Assembly: GCF_030734285.1 (NCBI RefSeq)
Contig: NZ_CP132294.1
Span: 868,001 to 932,000, forward strand
From: Natronococcus sp. AD-5
GTDB taxonomy: Archaea; Halobacteriota; Halobacteria; Halobacteriales; Natrialbaceae
Reading direction: 5' to 3'
Length of the DNA stretch: 64,000 bases
Position 1 is the stretch's first letter; each line of letters begins with the position of its first letter. Below are positions 2,533 to 28,116 of the stretch, one piece after another. The notes under the pieces were generated by a model. The model had not been told where the DNA came from. It saw only the letters and a program-made list of their open reading frames with translations, and did no database searches. Position numbers and translations under genes: made by a program.

Positions 2533-3942
2533 ATGCAGGTCACGTATCTCGAATCGGCCGCGATACTCGTCGAAGACGAAGACGCGTCGATACTCTGCGA
2601 TCCCTGGCTGGTCGACGGCGCGTACTACGGCTCGTGGGCGCACTATCCCGAACCGGAGTTCGTGCCCGAGGATTTCAACCACGTCGACTACATTTACATC
2701 TCGCACATCCATCCGGATCACTTCGATCCCGACACGCTCGAGCGGATGGATACGGACATTCCGATTCTCATCCACGACTACCGGTGGGACTACCTGCGAG
2801 ACGCCATCGAGGAACTGGGGTACGACGTAATCGAGCTTCCGCACGGCCAGCGGACGCACCTGACCGGGGATATGCACATCAACATTCTCGCAGCCGACGG
2901 CTGCGACCCGGAACTGTGCGGAAACTACTTCGGCTGTACCTGGTACGACCCCGAGGCCGAGTCGCCCGGATCGACGCAGGTCGACTCGATGGCCGTCATC
3001 GACAACGGCGAGTTCACCATCGTCGATACTAACGACGTTCCGTTCGCCATGGCGGAATCGGGCTGTCGGAAAGTCAAGCGCGACTACGGGGAGGTCGACC
3101 TCCTCTGTCACCAGTACAGCGCGGCGCAGTTCTACCCGCAGGCCGTGACGAACTACAGTCACGAGCGGAAGATCCGCGAACGCGACCGTGTCATTCGCGA
3201 GAAGCACGAACTCGCCCTCGAGTTCATCGACGTCTTCGAACCGGCCTACTACATGCCGTTCGCCGGGGAGTACGTGCTCGCGGGCGACCTCGTTCACCTG
3301 AACGAGTACACGGCCAATCCGCCGCGGGAGGACGCGCTCGAGTTCTTCGAGAACGCCGTCGACCCCGACGAGCACGAGTGCGTCTTCCTCAACTCCGGGG
3401 AGCACATCGACCTCGAGACCGGCGAGCGCTCCGCCCCGTTCGAGCCCGCCGACCCCGAGGCGAAGCAGCGATACATCGAGGAGGTGCTGGCCGAACGGTC
3501 GTTCGACTACGAGGCGGATCCGATCCCGACGCTGTCGGAGCTGCAGGCGTACGTTCCCTACGCCTACGAGAACCTGGAGGAGAAGCGCGTGAAGATCGGC
3601 TACAGCACCGACACGATGGTGCTCGTCTCGACGGTCGACGACGTCTACCTCGAACTCTCGATGAACGGCGGCGGCTACCGGTACGTCTCGGACCCGGACC
3701 TCGAGGAGTACGACGGCTACGTCAAGATGGAGGTCGACCCGCGACTCCTGAAACGCCTCTTCGAGGGGCCACACAGCGCCTACTGGGCGGACGCGAAGAT
3801 CGGATCTCACCTCGGAATCAGCAAGGTACCGGACATCTACGAGCGGGGGCTGTTCCTCTGTCTCGGCTCGTTCCACGCCCACGGGTACGACGTGAATCCC
3901 GCGTCGAGCGAGACGTCGGACGCGAGGGTCGCACAGGATTGA
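2533..3942 (+). CDS. MBL-fold metallohydrolase (CMP-Neu5Ac-hydroxylase/UlaG-like)
   Basis: This 469-residue protein carries the metallo-beta-lactamase-fold signature HIHPDH at residues 58-63, followed by FDPDTLE. Further candidate metal ligands occur in ADGCDPELCGNYFGC and in STQVDSMAVIDNGEFTIVDT. The N-terminus MQVTYLESAAILVEDEDASI...CDPWL is typical of UlaG/CMAH-like MBL proteins that act on sugar or nucleotide-sugar derivatives. The long C-terminal half (after about 270) has no recognised domain and is roughly twice the usual MBL length. ATG 2533 is preferred over an in-frame GTG at 2524 because of the TATA spacing. It is a stand-alone gene next to decayed neighbours, and the substrate is unknown. 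Confidence 0.8.
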   Translation: MQVTYLESAAILVEDEDASILCDPWLVDGAYYGSWAHYPEPEFVPEDFNHVDYIYISHIHPDHFDPDTLERMDTDIPILIHDYRWDYLRDAIEELGYDVIELPHGQRTHLTGDMHINILAADGCDPELCGNYFGCTWYDPEAESPGSTQVDSMAVIDNGEFTIVDTNDVPFAMAESGCRKVKRDYGEVDLLCHQYSAAQFYPQAVTNYSHERKIRERDRVIREKHELALEFIDVFEPAYYMPFAGEYVLAGDLVHLNEYTANPPREDALEFFENAVDPDEHECVFLNSGEHIDLETGERSAPFEPADPEAKQRYIEEVLAERSFDYEADPIPTLSELQAYVPYAYENLEEKRVKIGYSTDTMVLVSTVDDVYLELSMNGGGYRYVSDPDLEEYDGYVKMEVDPRLLKRLFEGPHSAYWADAKIGSHLGISKVPDIYERGLFLCLGSFHAHGYDVNPASSETSDARVAQD

Positions 3943-3944
3943 AC

Positions 3945-4336
3945 CCCGGGCCCGGCGCCGCGATCGGCGCGAGTGCGCGTCGGACGATCCCGTCGAGTCC
4001 GGCCGCGAGTGCGAAGAGGGCGGCGGGCGCCCACGCGGCGGCCGGCGGCGAGCGAGCGATCACGAACCCGGCGAGCACCGCGACCGCGCCGCCGCGTGCG
4101 AGGGTCACCCACGTCGCGAGTGTAAGCGGCTGCGGATTCGTCCGATCGGCCGCTCGGAAGAACAGCGCCGACTCGAGACCGACGACGCTCGCAACGACCG
4201 CGAGAAACGCGGCGGTCGGTCCGGCGGGCCACGTCGCCTCGAGCGCGAGAGCAGCGGTCGAGGCCGCGGTCGCGCACCCGAGCGCGGCGCGTCCCACCGC
4301 GGAGTCGTGCGGCGAATTCGCCGGATGGTACCGTCG
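3945..4336 (-). pseudogene. Truncated CDP-alcohol phosphatidyltransferase-like gene
   Basis: The minus-strand frame from a GTG at 4297 reads GRAALGCATAASTAALALEA... and then LTLATWVTLARGGAVAVLAG...ALFALAAGLDGIVRRALAPI. This matches the N-terminal half of haloarchaeal CDP-alcohol phosphotransferases, where the helix with a TLARG-like motif precedes the catalytic DGx2ARx8DGx3Dx3D signature. Here the protein breaks exactly at that point: only LDG remains, and the frame then runs antisense into the 3' end of the MBL gene. An EFAARLR segment typical of the start lies upstream in another frame, suggesting one more indel. The catalytic domain is absent, so the gene is dead. Confidence 0.6.
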
Positions 4337-4337
4337 A

Positions 4338-4716
4338 TCACGGCTCCTCGCGGGGATAGAGGACGACGAACGCGACGATCAGCAGCCCAGTGCGACCGTG
4401 TCGACGACCTCGGGAACGGAGAGGTCGTCGACGGCGGTTGGTTCGTTGACGGGATACCAGAAGAGGCTCCGGGCGACGGTGAACGGAATTCCGGCGAGGT
4501 AGACGGGACGACGGCGATACCCGACGAGCACGGGCGCGATTCCGACGAGGAATCCGACGGTCGCGAGCAAGAAAGCCCCGCCCATCCGGTGCGGGAGAAA
4601 CTCCACGCCGAGCGCCGGGTGGACGATCGCGGAGACGGTCGCCAGGGCGATCGCCGCCCGGTGAACGGAAGGGGCGTGAGCGACTCGAACGCGAGGCGTC
4701 CCTCAGAAACGGACAT
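4338..4716 (-). pseudogene. Frameshifted four-helix membrane protein (DUF7475-like)
   Basis: Three frames join into one membrane protein. It begins MSVSEGRLAFESLTPLP, then SVHRAAIALATVSAIVHPAL...GFLVGIAPVLVGYRRRPVYL...PFTVARSLFWYPVNEP...PEVVDTVAL, then LLIVAFVVLYPREEP and a stop at 4338. The pattern of four helices with GYRRR, a YPVNEP-like turn and a final VVLY is familiar from a haloarchaeal family that I recall as DUF7475. One indel sits near 4665 and another near 4380. The family name is from memory; the frame structure is directly visible. Confidence 0.6.
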
Positions 4717-4766
4717 GTAAACGTGCTACCAAGAAGGACGGAAGAACGCGTTCCGGCGGCGAGACG

Positions 4767-5387
4767 TCAAATCTTGTTCGCGGGCGGGATCGTCCGTTCG
4801 TCGGGGTTGGTCGTCCCGCCGGCGCCGAACAGGACCCGCACGCCGGCGCCGGTTCCCAGAATCGCGGCGATTCCGGTGACGACGACGGCTACCGGCACCG
4901 AGAGCGCGGAGAGCCCGCTCAGGAGCGTGCCGACGATCACCCCGACCCACAGCCGGTCCCGGCCGAGTCGCGTCGCGACCGAGACGCCCACGGCGACGAA
5001 GCCGAGCGCCGTCAGGACCGGCAGGGCGGTCGCGCCCACGACGACCATGATGACGCCGAAGAACATCCCGACGTTCGTGTCGAGAAGGAGGTAGCCGCCG
5101 CTCGCGAGGCCGCCGAGAACGAGCGCGGTCGGAACCCCGACGCAGCTCGAGATGACGGGACTCCGACGGGATTTCGCGACGATCCGCGCGCCGTAGCCCT
5201 GGAGCAGCCCGAGGACGACCGTCGCGAGGAGCAACGTCGCGGCGAACTGAACGCCGGCTCGCTCGAGCGGACCGAGCGACTGGAACAGTTCGACCCCACC
5301 CTGAATCGCGGCGAGGTGCCCGACCGTCTCCCGGGCCGGACCGTCAATGGCGTGTAATAAGTTTGTTGGCCACATACACAGATTCAT
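4767..5387 (-). CDS. Multi-pass membrane protein of unknown function
   Basis: This 206-residue protein has a short N-terminal segment (HLAAIQGGVELFQSLGPLER) followed by about five hydrophobic helices: FAATLLLATVVLGLL, VGVPTALVLGGLASGGYLL, MFFGVIMVVVGATALPVL, LWVGVIVGTLLSGLSAL and VPVAVVVTGIAAILGTGAGV. It ends in a polar tail with PDERTIPPANKI. Its general look is like haloarchaeal membrane proteins with bactofilin-linked or unknown roles, and no catalytic motif is evident. A second in-frame ATG lies four codons downstream of the first (MWPTNLL), so the start is uncertain by that much. It is transcribed away from the ribosomal operon and shares its upstream region. Confidence 0.75.
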   Translation of the reverse strand: MNLCMWPTNLLHAIDGPARETVGHLAAIQGGVELFQSLGPLERAGVQFAATLLLATVVLGLLQGYGARIVAKSRRSPVISSCVGVPTALVLGGLASGGYLLLDTNVGMFFGVIMVVVGATALPVLTALGFVAVGVSVATRLGRDRLWVGVIVGTLLSGLSALSVPVAVVVTGIAAILGTGAGVRVLFGAGGTTNPDERTIPPANKI

Positions 5388-7719: not shown

Positions 7720-8412
7720 GTGACAACAGCCGTGTATTTCGACCTCGACGGAACGCTCTGTACGTACGACGTCCCGTTCGAGGAGCAGTTCGCGACGACG
7801 GTTTCGCCGTACGGCGAGCCGACCGACGCGGCCTACGATGCCTACGTCGGCCGGCTGTTCGACGCGCTCGAGGCCTGCGAGTCCGAGCCGTACCGTCGCG
7901 CGTTCGAGGCCGTCGCGGAGACGGCGGAACTCGAGGCGACGCCCGCCGCGCTCGCCCGCGATCACTGCGAGACGGAACTCGAGGCGTCCGTCGTGTCGGC
8001 GGACGCGACGCGCGTCCTCGAGCGCGTCGCGGAGACGAACCCGACCGGCGTTCTGACCAACGGCGACGGAAGCCAGCAGCGGGCGAAACTCGACCGCCAC
8101 GGGCTCGACGAACTCGTCGACGAGGTGCTCGTCTCGAACGACGTCGGCGTACGGAAGCCCGAGTCCGAAATCTTCGACCTCGCGAGGGCGCGGCTTCCCG
8201 CCGACGACCACGTCTACGTCGGCGACAGCTACGAGGAGGATATCGTCGGCGCCCGATCGGCGGGCTTCGGAACGATCTACGTCGACGAGACCGGAAGCGG
8301 AACGGACGGCATCGATGCCGCTGATGCGGTCGTCTCGAGCGTCGGCGAACTCCTCGATCCGAACTCGCTCCCCGCGGCGATCGGTGCGCCGTTCGAGCCG
8401 TCGGAACGATAG
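7720..8412 (+). CDS. HAD-superfamily hydrolase
   Basis: This 230-residue HAD phosphatase contains all four motifs. Motif I is YFDLDGTLC with the nucleophile Asp (about residue 8). Motif II is GVLTNGDGS (about 108). The motif III lysine lies in VRKPESEIF (about 147). Motif IV is VYVGDSYEEDIVGA (about 168). A helical cap (about 15-90) marks subfamily I with a C1 cap, as in phosphoglycolate phosphatase or haloacid dehalogenase relatives. The substrate cannot be read. The GTG start at 7720 places the catalytic motif at the normal distance from the N-terminus. It is an independent gene downstream of the ribosomal operon. Confidence 0.88.
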   Translation: MTTAVYFDLDGTLCTYDVPFEEQFATTVSPYGEPTDAAYDAYVGRLFDALEACESEPYRRAFEAVAETAELEATPAALARDHCETELEASVVSADATRVLERVAETNPTGVLTNGDGSQQRAKLDRHGLDELVDEVLVSNDVGVRKPESEIFDLARARLPADDHVYVGDSYEEDIVGARSAGFGTIYVDETGSGTDGIDAADAVVSSVGELLDPNSLPAAIGAPFEPSER

Positions 8413-8466
8413 CGCTCGAGTCGCCGCCCCGCGAGTTTAAATCCCAGGAGGCGGCCAGACCCGTCG

Positions 8467-17137: not shown

Positions 17138-18346
17138 ATGGTCGACTACCGTCCGATCCCGGACGAGCGGGAAGTCTTCCACGAGTACCGGAGCTACGCG
17201 TTCAGGCCGGAGGAGGGCGTCCCGCCGTACGATCCCGAGGAGCACGAGAATCCGAGAGCGACTCGCGGCGCTCGCCGCGGCGTCTACGCCGACGACGGCG
17301 ACGAGCGGCCGCGGACCGTCTGTCGGCACTACTGGCTCGAGGCCCGCGTCCGCGGCGACGCCCACCCGACCGCCGGGCTGGCGTCGGTCGCGACGCCGCC
17401 GGAGTACCGCCGGGACGGGTACGTCCGTCGACTGCTGAAACGCTCCCTCGCGGAGTACCGAGACCGCGGCGATCGGTTCTCGGTCCTGTGGCCGTTCCAG
17501 TATCGCTTCTACCGGACGTACGGCTGGGACACCGCGAACCGAATCGCAACCCACGCGTTCGAGCCGAGCGTGCTGTCGTTCGCGAGGGGAGCCGACGCCG
17601 GCGGCTCGTTCCGGCCGCTCGAGGCCGACGATTACGAGGACCTCGAGCCCGCCTACGGCGCCGCTTCCGAGGGCCTCGCGCTCGAGCGCGACGAGGAGTG
17701 GTGGCGCCACCGCGTCTTCGGGGGCCACGACGTCGACCCCTTCGTCTACGCCTACGATCGCGGCGGGGAGGTGGCCGGCTACCTCGTCTACCGGATCGAG
17801 GACGAGGGCGACGGCCGGACGCTGCGCGTCTCGGAACTGACCGCGGCCGATCGCGACGCCCTGCTGGCGCTGCTCGCGTTCTGCGCCGACCACGACTCGC
17901 AGGTCGGGCGGATCGAACTCCGGGTCTCCCGGACGGTTCCGATCCGGGACCTCGCGATGGACCCCGACGAGATCGAGACGACGGTCGTAGACGGTCCGAT
18001 GGTCCGTCTCGTCGACGTCGCGGAGACGCTCCCGGCGCTGTCGCTGCCCGACGCGAGTGCCGCGCTGACGCTCGCGGTCGAGGACCCGCTGGTCGACTGG
18101 AACGACGGCGCGTTCGCGCTCGAGGCCGCGAACGGACGACTCACCTGCGATCGGCTGGGCGGGGCTTCGGAGGCCGATCCCGACGCGACCCTCGAGATCG
18201 GCGCGCTCTCACGGCTCGCCGTCGGCGCGCGGTCTGCAACCGCCCTCGAGCGGACGGGTCGACTCGAGGCGGCGGATCCCGACGTCGTATCGACGCTCGA
18301 GTCCCTGTTCCCGGAGACGGACGTCTACTTCGGCGAGTACTTCTGA
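17138..18346 (+). CDS. Eis-like GNAT acetyltransferase with sterol-carrier-like C-terminus
   Basis: This 402-residue protein has the three-part Eis architecture. The first GNAT domain holds GLASVATPPEYRRDGYVRRL (about 88-107), where the V-x(3)-P-x-YR-x(2)-G-x(2)-R pattern is the acetyl-CoA-binding pyrophosphate loop. A second GNAT-like domain lies around residues 165-285. A C-terminal SCP2-like domain (about 300-402) contains a VYFGEYF end. Eis relatives acetylate amines on peptides, polyamines or aminoglycosides; the haloarchaeal substrate is unknown. It converges with the first FAD oxidoreductase gene with four bases between stops. Confidence 0.88.
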   Translation: MVDYRPIPDEREVFHEYRSYAFRPEEGVPPYDPEEHENPRATRGARRGVYADDGDERPRTVCRHYWLEARVRGDAHPTAGLASVATPPEYRRDGYVRRLLKRSLAEYRDRGDRFSVLWPFQYRFYRTYGWDTANRIATHAFEPSVLSFARGADAGGSFRPLEADDYEDLEPAYGAASEGLALERDEEWWRHRVFGGHDVDPFVYAYDRGGEVAGYLVYRIEDEGDGRTLRVSELTAADRDALLALLAFCADHDSQVGRIELRVSRTVPIRDLAMDPDEIETTVVDGPMVRLVDVAETLPALSLPDASAALTLAVEDPLVDWNDGAFALEAANGRLTCDRLGGASEADPDATLEIGALSRLAVGARSATALERTGRLEAADPDVVSTLESLFPETDVYFGEYF

Positions 18347-18350
18347 GCGA

Positions 18351-19523
18351 TCACACCACGTTCCGCTCGACCCGCTCGGTCCCGGTCTCGAACCGCTCGC
18401 TCGAGAGCGCCTCGATGTCGACCAGCGACGCCTCGCCGTCGACGGTCAGTTCGGCGACGATCCGACCGGTCGCCGGCGCGTGCTGAAAGCCGTGGCCGGA
18501 GAAGCCGGCGGCCGTGACGAGGCCGGGAACGGTCTCCTCGACGATCGCGTTGTCGTCCGGCGTGACGGCGTACAGGCCCGCCCAGCCGCGCTTGATCCGC
18601 GACTCCGGGCCGAAGTAGGTCGCCCACTCGGCGGCCGTCTCGAGGACCTCGGCGGCCCAGTCGAAGTCGATCCCCCGATCGTAGCCGTCCGGATCGCGGT
18701 CCGGATCCGCGCTCGTGAGGTGGCCCCCGACCAGCGCGTCGCCGTCTCGCTCGGGTCGGAAGTAGGTCCCCGTCTCGAGGTCGATCGTCAGCGGATCCGT
18801 TTCGGGCACCGGCTCCTCGGGACCGACGACGACCATCTGGCGTCGCTTCGGGGCGATCGGCAGCGAGACGCCGGCCATCTCCGCGACCCGCCGAGCCCAC
18901 GGTCCCGCGGCGTTGACGACGACGTCGGCCTCGAGTCGACCGTCCGGCGTTTCGACGCCCGTGACGCGTTCCTCGCCGCGGGCCCCTCCTCTTTGACCCT
19001 CTCGGAGCACGTCGGTGACGGGCGTCTGCGTCCGAACATCGACGCCCGTGTCGGCCGCCGCTCGCGCGTACGCCTGCAGCGCGAGGTGGGGATCGGCGAA
19101 GCCGTCGGTCGGGGAGTAGGTCGCCGCCGCGAATTTCTCCGGGTCGATCCCGGGGCAGCGCTCGCGGGCGGCGTCGGGATCGAGCACCTCGCTCGGGACG
19201 CCGCGCTCGTTTTGCATCTCGACCGCCCGCTCGAGGGCCGACGCGGTTTCCGGGGCGCGGGCGAGGAAGAGGTAGCCCGTCTTCCGGTAGTCGATGTCGG
19301 TCCCGAACCGCTCCTCGAACGTGTCCCAGACCTCCATGCTCGCGACGGAGAGGTCGACGTTGGTGGGCGTCGAGAACTGGGCCCGAATGCCGCCCGCGGC
19401 CCGTTCCGTGCTGCCGTTACCGATCGATCCCTTCTCGCAGACGACGACGTCGACCTCGCGCTCGGCCAGCGCGTAGGCGCTCGACAGTCCGACGATCCCA
19501 CCGCCGATAACGACGATACGCAT
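18351..19523 (-). CDS. FAD-dependent oxidoreductase (DadA/GlpA family), copy 1
   Basis: A 390-residue flavoenzyme starting MRIVVIGGGIVGLSSAYALA, the FAD-binding Rossmann loop, followed by the acidic ribose-binding strand end VVCEKGSIG. The middle contains VVNAAGPWARRVAEMAG, the second FAD-contact motif. The C-terminus has GLVTAAGFSGHGFQHAPATG, the closing FAD-binding segment. Relatives oxidise D-amino acids, sarcosine, glycine or hydroxyproline. A second family member lies just upstream (19605-20696) with a strikingly similar promoter, so the pair seems to be an old duplication under common control. Substrate is not determined. Confidence 0.9.
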   Translation of the reverse strand: MRIVVIGGGIVGLSSAYALAEREVDVVVCEKGSIGNGSTERAAGGIRAQFSTPTNVDLSVASMEVWDTFEERFGTDIDYRKTGYLFLARAPETASALERAVEMQNERGVPSEVLDPDAARERCPGIDPEKFAAATYSPTDGFADPHLALQAYARAAADTGVDVRTQTPVTDVLREGQRGGARGEERVTGVETPDGRLEADVVVNAAGPWARRVAEMAGVSLPIAPKRRQMVVVGPEEPVPETDPLTIDLETGTYFRPERDGDALVGGHLTSADPDRDPDGYDRGIDFDWAAEVLETAAEWATYFGPESRIKRGWAGLYAVTPDDNAIVEETVPGLVTAAGFSGHGFQHAPATGRIVAELTVDGEASLVDIEALSSERFETGTERVERNVV

Positions 19524-19566
19524 ACGGGTTTCGTTGGCACGTGTGAGGATAAGCGTTCGTTCCGGC
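19524..19566 (-). promoter_or_regulatory. Promoter of FAD oxidoreductase copy 1
   Basis: On the minus strand CGAACGCTTATCCTC lies 25-35 bases before the ATG, the normal TATA/BRE distance for a leaderless haloarchaeal gene. About four-fifths of the 42 bases upstream of the start are identical to those upstream of the second FAD oxidoreductase gene. Confidence 0.55.
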
Positions 19567-19604
19567 TGCAGTGACTGTCACGCGACGAGTCCGATCCGAT
19601 CGTC

Positions 19605-20696
19605 TCAGAACCGGGCCGGCGAGAGGCGGCTGCGGACCTCGGGATCGACCTCGTCCGCGAGTATTTCGCGGACGACGTCGGCGACGGCCGGCGCGAGGGT
19701 GATCCCCTTCCCCGTCATCCCGACCGCGACGAAGTAGCCGTCGACGGCCGTCTCGCCGACGATCGGCCGCCCGTCCGGCGTGACGGTCCGGTAGCCGACC
19801 CACTCGTCGACGACCGACGCCCCCTCGAGCGCGGGAACGGCGGTCTCGAGGTCCGTCGCCGACTCTACGAAGCCGTCCGGCAGGGAGCGGTCCCGCAGGT
19901 CGTAGCGCTGCCCCTCGGCGTAATCGGTCTGATACGCGCCGATCCACGCCCCCGTTTCGCCGGCGGGGCGAACGTACCGCTTCGACTCGAAGATCGCCGT
20001 CGGGCACTCGAGCGGTTCGCGACACTCGAGCGCTAGCATCGGACCTCGCGTATGACAGAGCGGCAGCGAGACGCCGACCCGCTTGTTCAGCTCCGGCGCC
20101 CACGGGCCGGTCGCGTTGACGACGCGGTCGGCATCGAGGCGGCCCTCGTCGGTGTCGACCGCCGAGACGGCGCCCGATCGCGTCTCCACGTCGGTCACAC
20201 CGATGCCCGTTCGGACGTCGACTCCCGCATTCCGGGCTCGGTCGGCGAACCAGTTCGCGACCGCCGTCGGGTCACAGATGCGGTCGTCCGGCGTGTAGAG
20301 CCCGCCTTCGACGCCGTCGGGTTCGATGCCGAAGTCGGCGAGTTCCGTCGGCTCGAGGTACGACGCGTCGGTCCCGTGCTCGCGGAGGGTCGTCGCGGAC
20401 TCCTCGAGTCGGTCGGCGAAGGCCGCCGTCTCGGCGACGTAGACGATCCCGATCCGCTCGGCCTCGAGGTCGCCGTTTTCGAACAGGTCGCGGTAGGCCT
20501 CGTGTGCGCGGTCTCGAAAGCGCAGGTCGAACGGCGCCGGATCGACGGCGGTCCGCATCAGGAGGCCGGCGGAGGCGGCCGTCGTCTCCTCGCCGATTCG
20601 GGAGCGCTCGAGCAGGGTCACGTCGTGGTCGGTCGAGCCGAGTCGCGACGCGACGGCCGTGCCGACGATGCCGCCGCCGATGACGACGATTCGCAT
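19605..20696 (-). CDS. FAD-dependent oxidoreductase (DadA/GlpA family), copy 2
   Basis: A 363-residue flavoenzyme. It starts MRIVVIGGGIVGTAVASRLG (Rossmann FAD loop) and then VTLLERSRIGEETTAASAGL, where the TAASAG turn contacts the flavin. VVNATGPWAPELNKRVG is the second FAD motif, and FVAVGMTGKGITLAPAVADV closes the site. It shares the fold and length of copy 1 but differs in sequence along most of its length. Likely substrates are D-amino acids or N-methylated or cyclic amines. The ornithine-cyclodeaminase-family gene 1.5 kb away could handle an imine product such as pyrroline-2-carboxylate, but this link is an inference. Confidence 0.9.
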   Translation of the reverse strand: MRIVVIGGGIVGTAVASRLGSTDHDVTLLERSRIGEETTAASAGLLMRTAVDPAPFDLRFRDRAHEAYRDLFENGDLEAERIGIVYVAETAAFADRLEESATTLREHGTDASYLEPTELADFGIEPDGVEGGLYTPDDRICDPTAVANWFADRARNAGVDVRTGIGVTDVETRSGAVSAVDTDEGRLDADRVVNATGPWAPELNKRVGVSLPLCHTRGPMLALECREPLECPTAIFESKRYVRPAGETGAWIGAYQTDYAEGQRYDLRDRSLPDGFVESATDLETAVPALEGASVVDEWVGYRTVTPDGRPIVGETAVDGYFVAVGMTGKGITLAPAVADVVREILADEVDPEVRSRLSPARF

Positions 20697-20740
20697 ACGA
20701 GTGTCGTTGACGCGAGCGAGAATAAGCGTTCGCTCCCGGC
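20697..20740 (-). promoter_or_regulatory. Promoter of FAD oxidoreductase copy 2
   Basis: CGAACGCTTATTCTC on the minus strand lies 25-35 bases before the ATG at 20696. It matches the copy 1 promoter almost base for base, including the stretch between TATA and ATG. Confidence 0.55.
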
Positions 20741-20800
20741 GTCGCACGGCCGATCGATCCGTCGCTCGGAGCACCGGTCGCGGCGATCTCCGCCGTCGGT

Positions 20801-22015
20801 TCAGTCGAGGCCGAGCGCGGCGGCGACGTCGAGGAGACCGTTGCCCTGTTCGGTGGCGGCGAGGCCGATGTCCTCGGCGGTCTCGTTCAGCCGCTGGCGA
20901 GCCTCCTCGTTCGTGTATCCGTCCTCCATCAGCTGGGCGGCGGCGCCGCTGACGTGCGGACAGGCCATCGACGTGCCATTCCACCGATCGTAGTCGTCGC
21001 CGGGTACCGACGAGAGGACGTCCGCGCCCGGCGCGGCGAGTTCGACCTCTTCCCCGCGCGAGGAGAAGTCGGCGATGTCGTCGTTTTCGGTGGTCGCGCT
21101 CACGGCGATGCACTCCCCGTAGGCCGCCGGGTACGAGACGGTGTCCTCGTCGGGCCCGTCGTTACCCGCGGCGGCGACGAGGAGCGTCCCCTCCGACTGG
21201 GCGTACTCGCACGCGTCTTTGAGCGTCTCGGAGCTTCCGCCGCCGAGACTGAGGCTGCCGACGTCGATCCCCTGGTCGGCGGTCCACTCGATGCCGGCGG
21301 CGACGTCGGACATCGAGCCAGAACCGCGCGAATCCAGCACCTTCACCGCGTACAGGTCGGCTTCGGTGGAGACGCCGACGACGCCGATATCGTTATCCAG
21401 CCCGTTCGCCGTTCCGGCGCAGTGCGTGCCGTGGCCGTGATCGTCGTCCCAGTCCGCCGCGCACCGGCCGCCTCTGCACGAGACGAACGCCTTTCCGCCG
21501 GTCACCTCGAGCGTCTCGTGCTCCGGATCGATCCCCGTGTCAATGATCGAAACGCTCGAGCCGCCGCCGGTCTCGCCGTCGTGGTGGGCGATGTCGGCAT
21601 CTACGCGGTCGATCCCCCACGGGAGTACCTGTTCTTCGGTCGGATCGCCGCCGTCCTCGTCGGTCGAGTGGTCGATCGCGCGCACCTCGCCGTCTTCCTC
21701 GACGTATCGAACGTCGTTTCGCCGTCGGAGGTTCTCCCGCGCTCGTTCGGAGAACTTGCCGGCGACCGCCCAGCCGATGTCGCCGAAATGGAGGACGTGG
21801 CGGACCGAATCCGCCCGTCGACGGGCCTCGTCGCGACCTTCTCGATTGGCCGTCCCGACGATGTACGGTTCGGAGTCCGATCCTTCATCGCCGGCGGCCG
21901 TACCCACGGCACCGATCGTCCCGGCGGCCCCGACTACCTGGAGCACCCGGCGTCGAGGAACGTCCCGGCTCTTCGTCGAAACGATCGATTTACCGTGAAT
22001 GTCATCCTCTGACAT
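20801..22015 (-). CDS. Halolysin-like subtilisin-family (S8) serine protease, Tat-exported
   Basis: A 404-residue pre-pro-protease. A Tat signal occurs at residues 21-45 (RRRVLQVVGAAGTIGAVGTA). An inhibitor-I9-like propeptide spans about 48-115 and ends near VRYVEEDGEVRA. The catalytic domain follows, with Asp159 (IIDTGID), His195 (DDHGHGTHCAG), oxyanion-hole Asn285 (AAAGNDG) and Ser349 (NGTSMACPH). No C-terminal extension of the classic halolysin type is present, so the enzyme ends with the catalytic domain. Six cysteines in the catalytic domain (for example C180, C185, C199) could form disulfides. It is secreted, probably folded before export. Confidence 0.95.
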   Translation of the reverse strand: MSEDDIHGKSIVSTKSRDVPRRRVLQVVGAAGTIGAVGTAAGDEGSDSEPYIVGTANREGRDEARRRADSVRHVLHFGDIGWAVAGKFSERARENLRRRNDVRYVEEDGEVRAIDHSTDEDGGDPTEEQVLPWGIDRVDADIAHHDGETGGGSSVSIIDTGIDPEHETLEVTGGKAFVSCRGGRCAADWDDDHGHGTHCAGTANGLDNDIGVVGVSTEADLYAVKVLDSRGSGSMSDVAAGIEWTADQGIDVGSLSLGGGSSETLKDACEYAQSEGTLLVAAAGNDGPDEDTVSYPAAYGECIAVSATTENDDIADFSSRGEEVELAAPGADVLSSVPGDDYDRWNGTSMACPHVSGAAAQLMEDGYTNEEARQRLNETAEDIGLAATEQGNGLLDVAAALGLD

Positions 22016-22030
22016 AAGTACACTTTCCCT

Positions 22031-22047
22031 TATTTATAATATAAAAG
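22031..22047 (-). promoter_or_regulatory. AT-rich TATA region of the protease gene
   Basis: An unusually AT-rich run (TATTTATAATATAAAAG on the plus strand) lies 16-32 bases before the protease ATG. It gives a strong TATA element for a leaderless transcript. The divergent ornithine-cyclodeaminase-family gene starts about 145 bases further on and has no comparably AT-rich element. Confidence 0.6.
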
Positions 22048-22191
22048 TTAGGTGAATTTTCACTGAGAGAATCGGCCGAGGACCGTTCTAACGCCTCATC
22101 CGGCGTCGCCGGGATCGAGCCGTTGGATCCGCGAGAGGCGTCCTCGAAGGCTCGACACAGACTGAAGTGTTCCCCCCGCGATGCTCGCGAC

Positions 22192-23178
22192 ATGGTGCGC
22201 ATACTCTCCGACGAGGACGTCGCGTCGGTGCTCGACCTCGAGGAACTCCTCCCCGTCGTGGCCGACGCCTTCGAGAAGCAGCACGCAGGGGCGGTCGAAC
22301 GACCGGAGCGGCCACACTACCCGATCGGGACGGGGCTCGATCCGGACGCGCCGACGGACCCGACCGGGACGGGCCTCTGCATGCCGGCCTACGTCCACGG
22401 CGCGTCCTACGCCGCCACGAAACTCGTCGCCGTCTGCGAGGACAACCCGGAGCGCGGCCTGCCGACCGTCGCCGCCCAGATCGCGCTCACCGACGCCGAA
22501 ACCGGTCAGCCCGTCGGCTACCTGGCGGGGAATCGGGTCACCAGCGCCCGAACCGGCTGTATCGGCGGCCTCGCCGCGCGCGAACTGGCGACGGACGGCC
22601 CGATCGACCTCGGCGTGATCGGCGCCGGGACGCAGGCTCGGTGGCAGACGCGAGCGATCGCCGCGGCGGTTGGCTCCGACCTCGAGTCGATCCGGGTCTA
22701 CTCGCCGAGCGATTCCCGCGTCGCCTGCGCCGACGAACTCGAGTCGGAACTCGACGCTCCGGCGGCGCCCGTCGAGAGCCCCCGCGAAGCGGTCTCCGAC
22801 GCGGCAGTCGTCGTCACGGCGACGACGAGCACCGAGCCGGTCTTCCCCGGCGACGCCCTCGAGGACGGAACGCTCGTCGTCGCGGTCGGCGCGTACACGC
22901 CGGAGATGCGCGAACTGGACGACGAAACCGTCGAGCGCGCGGATCGGATCGTCGCCGACGTCCCGTCGGAGGCGGCCGAAACCGGCGACCTTCGCACCCA
23001 CTCCGGCCGCGAGATCCGACCGCTCGGCGGCGTGCTCGCCGACGAATTCGGCCGCGAATCGGCGGACGAACGCATCGTGATGGCGAGCGTCGGAACGGCG
23101 GTGCTCGACGCCGCGGCGGCCGAGTTCGTCTACGACCGGGCCGCCGGAGAGGGAATCGGAACGAGCGTCGCGCTCTGA
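22192..23178 (+). CDS. Ornithine cyclodeaminase/mu-crystallin family NAD(P)-dependent enzyme
   Basis: A 328-residue protein of the OCD/mu-crystallin family. The N-terminus MVRILSDEDVASVLDLEELL forms the dimer domain. CMPAYVHGASYAATKLVAVC and RTGCIGGLAARELA are family-specific. LGVIGAGTQARWQTRAIAAA (about 143-162) is the Rossmann nucleotide loop. Members make proline from ornithine, or reduce cyclic imines such as pyrroline-2-carboxylate, or act as alanine dehydrogenase in archaea. The nearby flavin amine oxidoreductases suggest an imine-reductase role, but this is a guess. Start ATG 22192 fits the family N-terminus; longer frames do not. Confidence 0.9.
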   Translation: MVRILSDEDVASVLDLEELLPVVADAFEKQHAGAVERPERPHYPIGTGLDPDAPTDPTGTGLCMPAYVHGASYAATKLVAVCEDNPERGLPTVAAQIALTDAETGQPVGYLAGNRVTSARTGCIGGLAARELATDGPIDLGVIGAGTQARWQTRAIAAAVGSDLESIRVYSPSDSRVACADELESELDAPAAPVESPREAVSDAAVVVTATTSTEPVFPGDALEDGTLVVAVGAYTPEMRELDDETVERADRIVADVPSEAAETGDLRTHSGREIRPLGGVLADEFGRESADERIVMASVGTAVLDAAAAEFVYDRAAGEGIGTSVAL

Positions 23179-23310: not shown

Positions 23311-25179
23311 GTGACGGGGCGGTCGGTCCCGCTCGTCGACCGCGTCACCGACGCCTTCTTCGCGCTCGACACCGACTTCCGGTTTACCTACCTCAACGAG
23401 CAAGCGGCGGCGCTGCTCGAGAGTTCGAGGTGCGAGCTGATCGGCCGAGTCGTCTGGGACGAGTTTCCGTACGCGGTCGAGACGCAGTTCCCCGACGGAT
23501 TTTACCGGGCGATGGACGAGCAGATGCCGGCGACGTTCGAGGTGTACCACGGTCGCCTCGAGACCTGGGTCGAGGTCCGGGCCTACCCCTCCGAAACCGG
23601 GCTCTCGGTCTACATGCTCGACGTCACCGAGCGAAAGGCCCAGGAGACGACGGTCGCCCAGCACGCCGCGGTCATCGAGGCCATCGACGACGGCGTCGTC
23701 ACGCTCGACCGAAACAGACGGATCGTCGCCGTCAACGGCGCGATGATCGCATTCCTCGGCGTCGGGCGGGACGAGTTGATCGGCGAGCACATCGAGGCCG
23801 TCACCGAACTCGCCGGGATCGACGACGAGGACACCCTCGAGATCGGTCGGGGGATCACCGACGTCGACGTGGGCAACGCCGATCAGCGCCGGCTCGAGGT
23901 CTCGTTCACCGACGGCGACGGAATCGATCGGGTCGGCGAATTCAGGATCGTTCCGATCCAAGACGAGACGGCCACCGTCGCGACCGTCGTCCGCGACGTC
24001 ACCGATCGCCGCGAGTACGAACGCGTCGTCACCTCGCTCCACGAGGTCACCCGGTGGCTCCTCGAGTCCGACGACCTCGAGGAGATCTGTGCCATCGCCG
24101 TCCACGCCGGCAGCGACCTGCTCGACCTGCCGATCAGCGGCGTCTGGCTGCTCGAGGAGGAGCGCGGCTACCTCGAACCGGTCGCGGGTACGGCGGGCGC
24201 CTACGAGGAGTTCGGCGGGCTCCCCCGGTTCAACCCCGGCGAAGGGCTCGTCTGGGACGTGTTCGAGTCCGGCGAGGTCGAGCGCTTCGACGACCTCCGG
24301 ACCGTCGACGAGCTGTACAATCCGGGCACGCCGATCCGGTCCGAGATCATCGCACCGATCGGGACCCACGGCGTGCTCATGACCGGCTCGTTCGAACCGC
24401 ACCAGTTCGACGAGACGGACGTCGACCTCCTCTCGACGCTCGTCGAGAACACCCGCGCCGCGCTCGATCGGGCCGACAGGGAGCGCGTCCTCCGCCGACG
24501 GACGAACCAGCTCGAGCAACAGACGAAACGCCTCGAGTCGATCGCGGAAGTCCTCTCGACCGACCTGAAACACCACCTCGAGACGATCGCGGACGCGCTC
24601 GAGGACGACGTCGACGAGGAGTGGGAGTTCCCCCTCGCCGCGGACTCGGTCGAGACGACGCTCGACAGGACCGAACACCTCGTCGACGACGTCCGGGAGT
24701 TCGCCCGCAACGCGTCGGACGTCGGGACGCGGACCCGAATCGACCTCGCCGACGCGATCGAGACGGCCCTCGAGACGTCCCGGCTCGAGGACGACGCGGT
24801 CGTGTTCGACGAGCGGGCGACGCTCCGGGCCGACAGCGAGCGGTTTTGCCACCTCCTCGAATCCGCGTTCGACAACGTCGCGGCCCGCGCCGGCGACGAC
24901 GACGTGACGGTCCGGATCGGACTTTTCGGCTTCGAGAACGACGATCGGCCGCGAGGATTCTTCGTGCTCGACGACGCGGCCGATATTTCGCCCGACGCAC
25001 GGGAACACGCGTTCGAACCGACCGTCGACGACCGCCCCGTCGTCGACGGGCTGGGACTCGCCGTCGTCAGGGCGATCGCTCAGGCGCACGACTGGACCCC
25101 TGCGATCGAAACCGACGATCGCGAGCGAACCCGGGTCGAAATCCGGAACGTGACGACGCTCGAGCGACGGGACCGATGA
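23311..25179 (+). CDS. PAS-PAS-GAF sensor protein with degenerate histidine-kinase module
   Basis: A 622-residue cytoplasmic sensor starting with GTG. PAS domain 1 is about 8-110 and PAS 2 about 120-235. A GAF domain (about 245-385) contains ICAIAVHAGSDLLDLPISGVW and RSEIIAPIGTHGVLMTG. The position of the dimerisation H-box reads VLSTDLKHHLETI (about 412-424), whereas active haloarchaeal kinases have SHDLRNPL; the phosphoacceptor His is replaced by Thr. The ATPase domain keeps an N-box Asn (AFDNVAARA) and GLGLAVVRAIA (G2), but the G1 box reads DDAADI in place of DxGxGI. It is probably a sensor or scaffold without normal autophosphorylation. It converges with the HalX regulator. Confidence 0.88.
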   Translation: MTGRSVPLVDRVTDAFFALDTDFRFTYLNEQAAALLESSRCELIGRVVWDEFPYAVETQFPDGFYRAMDEQMPATFEVYHGRLETWVEVRAYPSETGLSVYMLDVTERKAQETTVAQHAAVIEAIDDGVVTLDRNRRIVAVNGAMIAFLGVGRDELIGEHIEAVTELAGIDDEDTLEIGRGITDVDVGNADQRRLEVSFTDGDGIDRVGEFRIVPIQDETATVATVVRDVTDRREYERVVTSLHEVTRWLLESDDLEEICAIAVHAGSDLLDLPISGVWLLEEERGYLEPVAGTAGAYEEFGGLPRFNPGEGLVWDVFESGEVERFDDLRTVDELYNPGTPIRSEIIAPIGTHGVLMTGSFEPHQFDETDVDLLSTLVENTRAALDRADRERVLRRRTNQLEQQTKRLESIAEVLSTDLKHHLETIADALEDDVDEEWEFPLAADSVETTLDRTEHLVDDVREFARNASDVGTRTRIDLADAIETALETSRLEDDAVVFDERATLRADSERFCHLLESAFDNVAARAGDDDVTVRIGLFGFENDDRPRGFFVLDDAADISPDAREHAFEPTVDDRPVVDGLGLAVVRAIAQAHDWTPAIETDDRERTRVEIRNVTTLERRDR

Positions 25180-25197
25180 CGACCGACCGGGAGCGGT

Positions 25198-25785
25198 TCA
25201 CTCCGGGTGCGAAGCGCCGCGTTCGATTTCCCGATAGAGCTGCCGGTAGTTGGCCCGCTCGAGCAGTTCCGTCCGCGTCTCGTCGACCTGGACGCGAAGC
25301 ACCGCGAGCCGATCCTCGAGTTCGGCGTACTCCTGACTCGACTGCAGTTCGGCTTCGGTCTTCCGGCTATCCAGCACCGCCTTCTTCGAAGCGAGGGCGA
25401 AGAACTCCTGGATCTGCTCGTCGTAGGTGCGTCGCAACAGCAGCTGTTCGATACTGTTCCGGAGTTCGTCTTTGGACACCGGCTTGAGAAGATAGTCGTC
25501 GAATCCCATGTCGACGATGTCGAAGTCGGGTTCGACTGCGGTCACCATCGCCACCCGGGACTCCAGCCCGCGGTCTCGGATCGCATCGAGAACGGCCACG
25601 CCCGACCGGCCGGGAATCCGTCGGTCGAGCAAGATCACGTCGAACGCCTCGTCGATAGCCTCGACCGCCTCGGTCCCGTCGCGTGCCGTCTCGACGCGAC
25701 ATCGATCTTCGAGCCAGGACGCGTAGAGCTCGGCGAGCCCGGGTTCGTCCTCGACGATCAGTACGGATGCGGTGTCGGCGGCCAT
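25198..25785 (-). CDS. HalX-type response regulator
   Basis: A 195-residue response regulator. The receiver domain (about 5-120) has the acidic pair VLIVEDEPG, the phosphoacceptor Asp in DVILLDRRIPGRSG, the switch Thr in VTAVEP and the conserved Lys in YLLKPVSKDEL. The C-terminal HalX domain (about 125-190) is a coiled-coil-like helix (SKKAVLDSRKTEAELQSSQ) typical of Halobacteria. It has no DNA-binding domain. A TTG 20 codons upstream is in frame but sits in the TATA-like TATTTTGATATA, so ATG 25785 is preferred. Its stop is 19 bases from that of the degenerate kinase. Confidence 0.9.
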   Translation of the reverse strand: MAADTASVLIVEDEPGLAELYASWLEDRCRVETARDGTEAVEAIDEAFDVILLDRRIPGRSGVAVLDAIRDRGLESRVAMVTAVEPDFDIVDMGFDDYLLKPVSKDELRNSIEQLLLRRTYDEQIQEFFALASKKAVLDSRKTEAELQSSQEYAELEDRLAVLRVQVDETRTELLERANYRQLYREIERGASHPE

Positions 25786-25917
25786 CGAACGGAACACTTC
25801 CTCAACTGTCGGTTCGTCGTAGCCCTCGTACCGACGGTATATCAAAATACCGGGCGGCCCGGCGAGTTTTGCGGCGCGTCGACCGGTCCGGTTCGCCGAG
25901 TACGGCCGCTCCCGTCG

Positions 25918-28116
25918 CTACTCGAGTCCGCGTTCGATCGTCCGACGCCAGTCGCCGATGGTGGCGGCGTCGGTCGCGATCGTCCGGTCGCCGACGGCGA
26001 CCTCGAGCGCCCCGTCGGCCGTCGCGCTCCCGAGGTCGTGGACCGGCGCGACGCCGTCGAACGCCTCGCGGACGGTCGCGGGATCCTCGGTCTGGATCAG
26101 CGCGCGACCCGGCTGCTCGTGGAACAGCGCGCCCGCCGGATCGTCGCCGGGAAGCGACGCCTCGAGGCCCGCGTCCGCCGTGATCATCTCGGCGAGCGCG
26201 ACCGCCAGCCCGCCGTGGCTAACGTCGTGGACCGCGAGCGTCGATTCCTCGTTCGCGACGTCGGCGAGCGTCTCGACGACGGCGGCCGGATCTTCCGGCA
26301 GGGCGGGAAACAGATCGCTGCCGTCGAACCGTGCGAGGTACTCGGAGCCGCCGAGTCGGCAGTCTCCCGACTCGAGGCCGACGTCGCCGACGAGTAGCAA
26401 CTCGCCCTCGGGCTCCACCGAGAGCGGCGGCGCGTCGTACCCCTCTTTCGCCCCGACCATCGCGAGCGTCGGCGTCGGCGGGATCGGCCCCGCGACGGAG
26501 TCGTTGTACAGCGAGACGTTTCCGCCGACGACCGGCGTCGAGAGCGTCTCGCACATCTCGGCGAGGCCGTCGACGATCCCCCGGAATCCGCCGTAGACGT
26601 CCGACTTCTCGGGATTGCCGCCGTTGAGGCAGTCCACGGCGGCGAGCGGCGTCGCACCCTTGGCCGCGATGTTCGTCGCGTTCTCGAGGGCGATCGCTCG
26701 AGCCCCCTCGCGCGGCGCGGCGGTCGTCCAGTTCGGCGCGGCGCCGGAGGAGATGGCCAGCCCCTGTTCGGCTTCTCGGACGGCGATAATCGCGGCGTCG
26801 TCGCCCGGTCCCACGCTCGTTCGGACGCCGACCTCGTGATCGTACTGGCGGTACACCCACCGCTTCGAGGCCGTGTTGGGGCTCGAGACGACCGTCTCCA
26901 ACGCGTCCTCGAGGTCGACGCCGGGGAGGTCGGTATCGGGTTCGGTCGGTTCCTCTGCGGGGAGGTCGTTCATCGGCGCACCCTCGCCGAGGAAGTAGGC
27001 GTCGACGTCGACGACCGTTTCTCCCTCGAAGGTACAGGTATAGCTCTCTCCGGTGACCTCGCCGATGACCGAACAGCCCAGCTCGAACCGCTCGGCGATC
27101 TCTCGGACGCGGTCGACGTTTTCGGGTTCGACCTCGTAGCACATCCGCTCCTGGGACTCCGCGAGCAGGATCTCGAGGGCGCTCATGTTCGGCTCGCGCT
27201 GGTGGACGCGCTCGAGTTCGATGTGCGCCCCGAGACCGCCCTTGGCGACCAGTTCGCTCGAGGCCCCGCCGAGGCCGGCGGCGCCGAGGTCGCGGGCGGA
27301 CTCGATCAACTGCTCCTCGACCAGTACCTCGTTTGCCTCGATGAGCAACTTCTCGGCGTAGGGATCGCCGACCTGGACCGCGGGCCGGTCTTCGGTCTCC
27401 GCGTCCTCCGCGAGGTCCTCGCTGGCGAAGCTCGCGCCGCCGAGCCCGTCGCGGCCGGTCGCGTTGCCGACCAGCACCAGCTTGTTGCCGGGCTCCTGCG
27501 CTTCGGCGGTGACGAGTCGCTCCTCGTCCGTGAGGCCGATACAGGCGACGTTCACCAGCGGGTTCCCCTCGTAATCGGGGTGGAAGTCGACGCTGCCCGC
27601 GGCGGTAGGGACGCCGATACAGTTGCCGTAGTGGCTGATCCCCTCGACGACGCCCTCGAGGAGGTACTTCGAGTGCTCGCGGTCGAACTCGCCGAAGTAC
27701 AGCGAGTCCGCGAGCGCGATGGGATAGGCGCCCATCGAGAGGGTGTCCCGGACGATGCCGCCGACGCCCGTGGCGGCGCCGTCGAACGGGTCCACGTAGG
27801 AGGGGTGGTTGTGGCTCTCGATCCCCATCGTGACGTACGTCCGCGCGTCGTCTGCGCGCCCGCTGGCGCGTTCCGAGTCGACTGACGCCGACGAGGCGCC
27901 GTCTCCGTTTTCGGGAAGGGCGACGACCGCCGCGTCGTCACCCGGCCCGACGACGACCTGCTCGCCCTCGCTGTCGAACGCCGACAGCAGGGGTCTCGAG
28001 GAGCGGTACGCGCAGTGTTCGCTCCAGAGATTTTCGAACAACGCCGCCTCGGCCGGCGTCGGCTCTCGCCCCAGCTCGGAAACGACGAGTTCGCGGTCCG
28101 AATCGGCAAGGCTCAT
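25918..28116 (-). CDS. purL: Phosphoribosylformylglycinamidine synthase subunit PurL
   Basis: A 732-residue small-type PurL that converts FGAR to FGAM in purine synthesis, using ATP and ammonia supplied by PurQ, with PurS as third partner. The order of domains is: N-terminal [20 protein letters not shown], then the AIR-synthase-fold ATP domain with [20 protein letters not shown] and [15 protein letters not shown] second pseudo-symmetric half follows, with [20 protein letters not shown] and [16 protein letters not shown]. An insertion of about 25 polar residues ([20 protein letters not shown]) interrupts the first domain near residue 65. purS and purQ are not adjacent. Confidence 0.96.

Follow-up and report, generated by a model that had tools for sequence, protein, structure and literature searches.

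Gene Content of the Locus

The window analyzed here is a 64,000-nucleotide stretch of the 5.17-Mb genome (G000) of the haloarchaeon Natronococcus sp. AD-5. Its nearest relative in a contig scan, from which very near records may be missing, is Natronococcus pandeyae (L042; best-segment identity 87 %). On the forward strand, a gene with a GTG start (23311..25179) encodes a 622-residue protein that we designate a histidine pseudokinase. Its open reading frame, Pfam domains, and orthologues define the architecture PAS–PAS–GAF–DHp–CA. Pfam detects two PAS stretches, PAS 1 at residues ~8–112 (23332..23646) and PAS 2 at residues ~117–236 (23659..24018; PAS_4/PAS_9, residues 123–235), followed by a GAF domain at residues ~252–388 (24064..24474; GAF_2). 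A DHp-like two-helix region (residues ~389–476; 24475..24738) and an HATPase_c-like CA domain (residues ~477–618; 24739..25164), the latter placed by Pfam and an AlphaFold model, complete the protein. The HATPase_c match lies just above threshold (27.2 bits versus a cut-off of 26.4). Pfam finds no HisKA domain in the 622 residues, and NCBIfam yields nothing above cut-off except a PAS domain model.

Facing this gene on the reverse strand is a receiver–HalX response regulator gene (25198..25785), with 18 nt separating the two stop codons. The initial annotation had likewise described a HalX regulator facing the kinase gene; the longest open reading frame is 25198–25845, and the likely ATG, at 25785, coincides with the end of the region annotated. 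The assignment rests on Pfam receiver and HalX matches, a structure model, and the presence of pocket residues Asp33, Asp74, Thr102, and Lys121. In 2018, according to an excerpt of PMC5847659, the HalX domain was without documented function. An excerpt of PMC7824242 has since linked HVO_1357, a Haloferax volcanii HalX protein with several domains, to motility.

Upstream of the pseudokinase gene, on the same strand, lies a gene of the ornithine cyclodeaminase/mu-crystallin family (OCD; 22123..23178), present in 35 of 62 family loci. Beyond the HalX gene, on the reverse strand, is a purL-like gene with AIRS domains (25918..28116), present in 55 of the 62. A promoter and terminator scan returned nothing useful; its models are of bacterial type, and archaeal promoters fall outside their coverage.

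Altered Catalytic Boxes

The H-box of the window protein reads VLSTDLKHHL (LSTDLKHHL being residues 415–423), with Thr417 (codon 24559..24561) at the position of the phosphoacceptor His. The initial annotation had reported STDLKHHL instead of SHDLRNPL, and the orthologues extend that observation to the family. Among 63 aligned members, the window counted, residue 417 is Asn in 17, Thr in 14, Ser in 13, Glu in 7, Gly in 5, Arg in 3, Asp in 2, and Lys and Ala in 1 each; His occurs in none. The residue that follows is Asp in 58 of the 63. Nor does His occupy the H-box position in a further set of 72 genomes, which partly overlaps the species of the 63 members (71 were scored, and Asn was read in the alignment for G188). 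Within G000 itself, a canonical query retrieves 24 other kinase genes (25 loci, two of which are the same gene), and all carry SHDL at the H-box. Together with the absence of His from every orthologue aligned, this indicates that the H-box change in the window is not due to chance. Sequencing error or local decay is ruled out by orthologues that share the change and by selection on the gene.

The ATP-binding boxes are altered as well. In G1 (residues 552–560; 24964..24990), LDDAADIS stands where DDGxGI is expected. Across the family, Asp554 is retained in 58/63 members, and Ala replaces the first G1 glycine, at residue 556, in 57/63. The G2-like box (residues 578–586; 25042..25068), DGLGLAVV in the window, is kept (Gly580 in 60/63, Gly582 in 56/63). 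Thus, the annotated loss of G1 with PAS, GAF, and G2 remaining agrees with both the Pfam matches and the motif itself. To the boxes listed there we add the N-box (residues 517–526; 24859..24888), which is changed family-wide: residue 522 is Asp in 39 members, Ser in 13, Glu in 4, Asn in 3, Trp in 2, and Ala in 1 of the 63, and the window protein is one of the three that retain Asn522. A Natronococcus subgroup has, in addition, lost the greater part of G1 along with some of G2. When Pfam was applied at E 0.01 to the C-terminal parts of 52 family proteins, 43 yielded HATPase_c and none yielded HisKA. Measured against a HisKA–HATPase_c histidine kinase, therefore, the protein lacks the phosphoacceptor His and a full set of N, G1, and G2 boxes, while the DHp–CA fold is predicted to be present.

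Could another residue have assumed the role of the missing His? The window has HisHis at residues 421–422, and the initial annotation considered that one of the KHH histidines could have taken over. Residue 421, however, is His in only 7 of 63 members and residue 422 in 6. The sole invariant His within residues 390–622 is His593, which lies in the CA domain, and the DHp region of the 63 members contains no conserved Tyr and no other conserved His. With no candidate column in the DHp region, we rejected a relocated phospho-His or Tyr. Given also that the ATP boxes are degraded, an active kinase with a relocated phosphoacceptor, at KHH or elsewhere, is barely credible. The same annotation's suggestion of a non-phosphorylating sensor is, by comparison, well supported at the sequence level, since each member read carries the altered boxes.

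Extent of the Family

A protein search with the pseudokinase found matches in 59 of 61 genomes, the strongest of them covering the full length. An alignment-based scan of GTDB contigs gave 79 loci from the best 80 of 125; L042–L103 (62 loci) are family members and L104–L120 are outsiders. Two alignment rows (L028 and L030) were removed as the same genes as L040 and L041, and locus counts here and below do not represent independent events. A search across 391 genomes of the class gives scores of at least 731 bits for full-length members, 568 bits for the G264 protein, 526 and 481 bits for the split gene of G397, 419 bits for the best canonical kinase, and 376 bits for a short match in G207. Because a canonical kinase outscores the G207 match, score alone sets no family boundary; reading of the boxes does, although membership of most class-wide matches is assigned by score. 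The divergent G264 and G207 loci (L154 and L158) lack the His and have a facing HalX gene. Conversely, 12 boundary relatives (L155–L157, L159–L162, L165–L169) possess His, N, G1, and G2, and none of these 12 loci has a facing HalX gene of this type, with only weak receiver matches of 31–34 % in L165 and L169.

In a 55-row tree, built by a quick method and rooted with outsiders, one branch with an SH-aLRT of 100 sets 38 members, as a single clade, apart from 17 canonical kinases. In the class-wide search, 101 of the 102 same-family genomes listed have a match at E 2.5e-157 or better, as judged by score; 26 further genomes without a match stand outside that count. The exception is G014, whose best match is a canonical kinase (L165). 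As a yardstick, 61 family genomes were searched with a canonical kinase of G000, which has a match at E 1e-90 in 21 of them. The pseudokinase is thus kept more widely than that live kinase. Among the members read, we encountered no orthologue whose H-box is intact, and the open-licence PMC literature contains, among the matches listed, no description of this family.

Selection and Predicted Fold

Substitution rates were obtained by NG86 counting on hand-picked close pairs. In nine such pairs (eight with the HalX gene and one including L069, whose contig ends just past the pseudokinase gene), dN/dS is 0.07 for PAS1, 0.17 for PAS2, 0.08 for GAF, 0.12 for DHp, and 0.30 for CA. In two pairs (L056/L082 and L049/L098) whose members have lost HalX or carry a truncated copy, the values are 0.05 for DHp (95 % interval 0.02–0.10) and 0.17 for CA (0.10–0.27). 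The pseudokinase is under purifying selection in these close pairs.

The AlphaFold monomer model of residues 380–622 has a mean pLDDT of 83, and the DHp–CA fold is predicted to be intact. We compared this model with solved structures by re-scored Foldseek matches, counting rows within Z 1 as tied. The top match is 4kp4 (Z 16.5), followed among others by DivL (4q20, Z 15.7) and RetS (6dk7, Z 14.7). Nearly all of the 50 structure matches listed are solved histidine kinases, and DivL is not set apart from ordinary kinases. Of the checks that the initial annotation had called for, structural modeling yields this predicted fold, and the boxes prove to be altered in the orthologues too. The protein combines a predicted kinase fold, catalytic residues lost across orthologues, and a gene under selection, as a histidine pseudokinase should. 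With a single clade, 101 of 102 listed genomes scoring as carriers, purifying selection, and an intact predicted fold, we conclude from comparative sequence evidence that it is an ancient histidine pseudokinase family of haloarchaea.

An alternative is that the PAS–GAF part works alone and the DHp–CA part is a slowly decaying scaffold. The CA domain does have the highest dN/dS in the nine close pairs, with PAS1 and GAF the lowest, and the Natronococcus subgroup has shed G1 for the most part and G2 in part. But DHp and CA values remain well below 1, the fold is predicted intact, an alignment of 17 members shows Arg474, Arg506, and Thr616 without variation, and residues 480–600 are filled throughout in all 63. 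We consider such decay quite improbable.

The sensory half has distinctive features of its own. GAF has the lowest mean column entropy among the protein's domains, and residues specific to the pseudokinase family lie mainly within it. His265 (35/38 members), Ala295 (37/38), and Gly303 (38/38) each occur in 0 of 17 canonical kinases. These family-specific residues suggest that the GAF domain has a specialized ligand site.

Conservation and Loss of the HalX Neighbor

A HalX gene lies 3' of the pseudokinase gene in 50 of 61 assessable loci (the 62 family loci minus L069, which ends too soon), and in all 50 it is convergent. Its distance from the pseudokinase ranges from 23 to 2347 nt, measured between aligned ends. 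Pseudokinase, HalX, and purL follow one another as a syntenic block, often preceded by OCD, and adjacency of the first two genes may consequently be mere inheritance. Gene order across these loci identifies the convergent HalX gene as an ancestral neighbor of the pseudokinase.

The neighbor is not always kept. In L056, L070, L080, L082, L098, and L101, the HalX gene is missing and purL is directly next; in L049 the HalX gene is truncated. No HalX copy above 51 % identity turned up in searches of the whole genomes G020, G017, G023, G021, G009, and G034, some of which are of the same species as the HalX-less loci counted. G012 has a HalX gene (68 %) 22 kb away, adjoining purL. HalX has disappeared from several lineages in which the pseudokinase persists, intact and under selection. 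The reverse arrangement occurs in G014 and G058, where HalX adjoins purL and the pseudokinase is absent. Twelve wide loci around HalX in genomes without the pseudokinase (L236–L247) show no kinase-domain match nearby; of 28 short HalX loci, two have a kinase-like match close to the gene (a kinase end in L219 and a PAS–GAF part only in L217). A kinase-like neighbor is therefore not the rule for HalX.

The initial annotation proposed that the kinase might be a decoy that modulates the convergent regulator. A related possibility, modeled on Caulobacter DivL, is that the dead kinase binds the HalX receiver, perhaps only in its phosphorylated state, and sequesters, stabilizes, or reads it. Consistent with this notion are the convergent HalX gene itself, found also beside the divergent pseudokinases of L154 and L158, and conservation of the receiver: in an alignment that includes the truncated L049, Asp74 is present in 51/51, Thr102 in 51/51, and Lys121 in 50/51. 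On the other side, a Natronococcus subgroup includes receivers that are losing pocket residues (Asp33 to Ala in L074, L077, and L087; Lys121 to Glu in L075). The repeated losses of HalX from loci where the pseudokinase remains under selection, and the two genomes that retain HalX without it, argue against a dedicated reader.

Relaxation of the Docking Face and Tests of Co-evolution

Further evidence on this question comes from column entropies in 25 hand-picked pseudokinases and a single canonical kinase set of 30 rows. From the His position to +15, mean entropy is 1.81 bits in the pseudokinases versus 0.62 in the canonical set. Over the 20 residues before the His position, the values are 1.13 versus 0.68 bits, and on helix 2 they are 0.93 versus 1.12 bits. 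At +8, +11, and +15, the positions on helix 1 that determine the regulator specificity of HK853 (as taken from PDB titles), the pseudokinases have 1.97, 2.28, and 2.37 bits versus 1.12, 0, and 1.17 in the canonical kinases. Whole-protein identity is higher among the pseudokinases (0.54 versus 0.45) but CA-domain identity is lower (0.43 versus 0.49), so the relaxation of helix 1 may stem in part from a C-terminus that changes faster. Helix 2 is as tight as in live kinases, which, with one control family, places the center of relaxation on the phosphotransfer and docking face. In these alignments, the regulator-docking face of helix 1 is relaxed in the pseudokinases.

We also compared evolutionary distances of the pseudokinase and the regulator in a distance-correlation (mirror-tree) test, with species distance taken from purL and with L049 and loci without HalX or purL left out. 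In 47 loci, the receiver correlates with CA (r 0.44, 0/500 permutations; 0.34 without Natronococcus) and with PAS–GAF (0.60, 0/500 permutations), and with DHp at 0.18 (60/500). Two neighboring genes, PHP and 29212, served as controls and were measurable in 31 loci. There, the controls correlate with DHp at 0.36 and 0.51 versus 0.09 for the receiver, and with CA at 0.54 and 0.43 versus 0.30. For PAS–GAF, the receiver value is 0.64 versus 0.59 and 0.39 for the controls, and it falls to 0.09 without Natronococcus loci. To our reading, these results give no sign of specific co-evolution of the pseudokinase with the regulator, which may nevertheless have occurred.

The CA–receiver correlation and the presence of DivL among the structure matches speak for a DivL-like reader or decoy. 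The relaxed docking positions, and control genes that exceed the receiver for both DHp and CA where measurable, speak against one. On balance we regard such a role as unlikely, though it is the alternative that we take most seriously. What stands of the decoy proposal is the ancestral neighborhood with HalX; its mechanistic part is weakened by the repeated losses of HalX, by the genomes with HalX alone, and by the relaxed docking face.

Comparison with Known Systems

According to an excerpt of PMC4211667, DivL is devoid of both kinase and phosphatase activity and engages DivK~P via its regulator-docking face, which supplies the precedent for a reader. Like DivL as described there, the haloarchaeal protein joins PAS sensors to a DHp–CA fold in which the phospho-His is replaced, and DivL signals by contact. 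Unlike DivL, which has Tyr at the site and a docking face in use, the family has nine residue types at that position, with relaxed docking positions. Tyr at 417 occurs in 0/63 members, which places the family outside the DivL family proper; it is, in addition, archaeal, contains a GAF domain, and has lost G1.

Other precedents involve contact with a second kinase. The ChrS pseudokinase, in excerpts of PMC9491836, forms heterodimers with HrrS; that form arose in laboratory evolution through a CA frameshift. RetS, as represented in PDB titles and an excerpt of PMC6944256, is kinase-like and acts through kinase contact, and it matches our model at about Z 14.7. The haloarchaeal protein resembles both in being kinase-like; unlike for them, a kinase partner here is a guess.

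Among archaea, an excerpt of PMC11784639 describes Methanosarcina MA_type 2 kinases without an H-box, of which RdmS binds and hydrolyzes ATP and has no autokinase activity. With RdmS and MsmS (PMC11784639, PMC6944256, both in excerpt), our family shares an archaeal origin, a kinase-like architecture, and the lack of an H-box, a likeness of description. If it also worked as they do, the CA domain would still bind or hydrolyze ATP and act on another protein. Retention of Asp554 and of most of G2 fits with this idea, as does the ATP use of RdmS itself. Against it stand the Ala at the first G1 glycine, the rarity of the N-box Asn, and a CA dN/dS that is the highest of any domain. With G1 lost and N mostly lost, the sequence argues against ATP use of the RdmS type, and we consider the idea improbable.

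Finally, Galperin et al. 2018 (PMC5847659, in excerpt) describe nonenzymatic histidine kinase-like archaeal proteins that have HisKA with its His but no HATPase. They resemble the present family in combining PAS/GAF domains with a defective kinase module in an archaeal protein. The present family is not of that group, as it displays the reverse pattern, with HATPase_c recognizable in 43/52 and HisKA in 0/52.

A Proposed Contact-Signaling Role

Several elements are established by computation: conserved loss of catalytic residues, a single clade, purifying selection in close pairs, a predicted fold, synteny, and survival after loss of HalX. Because the broken form is kept under selection across relatives, the protein probably signals by contact instead of by phosphate transfer. 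Specifically, we favor, by a little over even chances, a PAS/GAF-gated dimer with output by protein contact; a kinase as its partner is itself a guess. According to this proposal, PAS and GAF would sense something in the cytoplasm, and the DHp helices would still dimerize and pass on the conformational change. Autophosphorylation would be impossible with the phospho-His and G1 boxes, and mostly the N-box, gone. Depending on ligand occupancy of PAS/GAF, the dimer would then bind or release a signaling partner. That partner may more often be another histidine kinase, with the neighboring HalX regulator an ancestral, dispensable client, and the family would have been inherited vertically.

Several observations weigh against contact signaling through a kinase partner. 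Most members retain Asp554 and G2, and with them perhaps some capacity to bind nucleotide. The convergent placement of HalX and the CA–receiver correlation mean that the regulator could be the real client. The faster change of the CA domain tempers what can be read from the relaxed helix 1. And the canonical kinase checked is patchy (21/61) and hence no obvious candidate for a fixed partner. A bolder form of the contact-signaling proposal is that the DHp region is now a PAS/GAF-driven contact switch, no longer a phosphotransfer or docking surface, in a lineage-wide one-component allosteric hub that outlives its regulator. This we offer tentatively, as a possibility somewhat short of even.

We note that the kinase-like proteins without kinase output in the excerpts of the compared papers are either bacterial (DivL, evolved ChrS, and the kinase-binding RetS) or from a methanogen (RdmS). 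Here, almost all genomes of one haloarchaeal family carry a dead kinase, and the neighboring regulator has been lost again and again. As HalX is present in some of these genomes and naturally absent from others, they lend themselves to a direct comparison that would show whether HalX is the client of the pseudokinase. If our proposal is true, two-component parts would have been rewired into non-phosphorylating signaling in haloarchaea too.

Upstream of the pseudokinase gene lie genes for a GNAT/SCP2 protein, two FAD oxidoreductases (DAO) and a subtilase, along with an ornithine-cyclodeaminase family gene (window 17138-23178). The last of these recurs in 35 of the 62 named family loci, and a DAO match occurs in 22 of the 62.

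The pseudokinase itself terminates in a conserved VTTLE tail (window 25150-25164). Specifically, Thr616 of this tail is present in all 38 pseudokinase members of the tree but in only 2 of the 17 canonical kinases. The tail is a possible contact peptide. One genome (L164 of G397, 3059-4911) has its pseudokinase gene broken across two frames and retains the HalX gene.

Regarding the convergent HalX response regulator (window 25198-25785), its structural model places the predicted HalX domain in a long helical hairpin formed by model residues 106-142 and 152-192. Block pLDDT exceeds 90 to about residue 170. As modeled, the domain bears a closer resemblance to a coiled coil than to a compact HTH.

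The HalX gene does not persist intact beside every pseudokinase. In Haloterrigena sp. H1 (L049:7899-8459), an intact pseudokinase adjoins a truncated HalX gene, with the match limited to the C-terminal half, and the Natrinema loci L056, L082, and L098 have lost the gene. In Halostagnicola sp. A-GB9-2, the 0.77 kb between the pseudokinase and purL (L071:7866-8640) contains neither a recognizable HalX gene nor a long open frame, a picture resembling in-situ decay of the regulator.

In a Natronococcus subgroup (loci L074, L075, L077, L081, and L087), the HalX gene lies inside positions 7812-8428 of the loci, and receiver pocket residues are being lost: Asp33 is replaced by Ala in three loci, and Lys121 by Glu in one. 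The pseudokinases of these same loci retain little of the G1 ATP box, and their G2 box is partly gone as well. Pseudokinase and regulator may be decaying jointly in this subgroup, or the HalX receiver may be turning into a pseudo-receiver.
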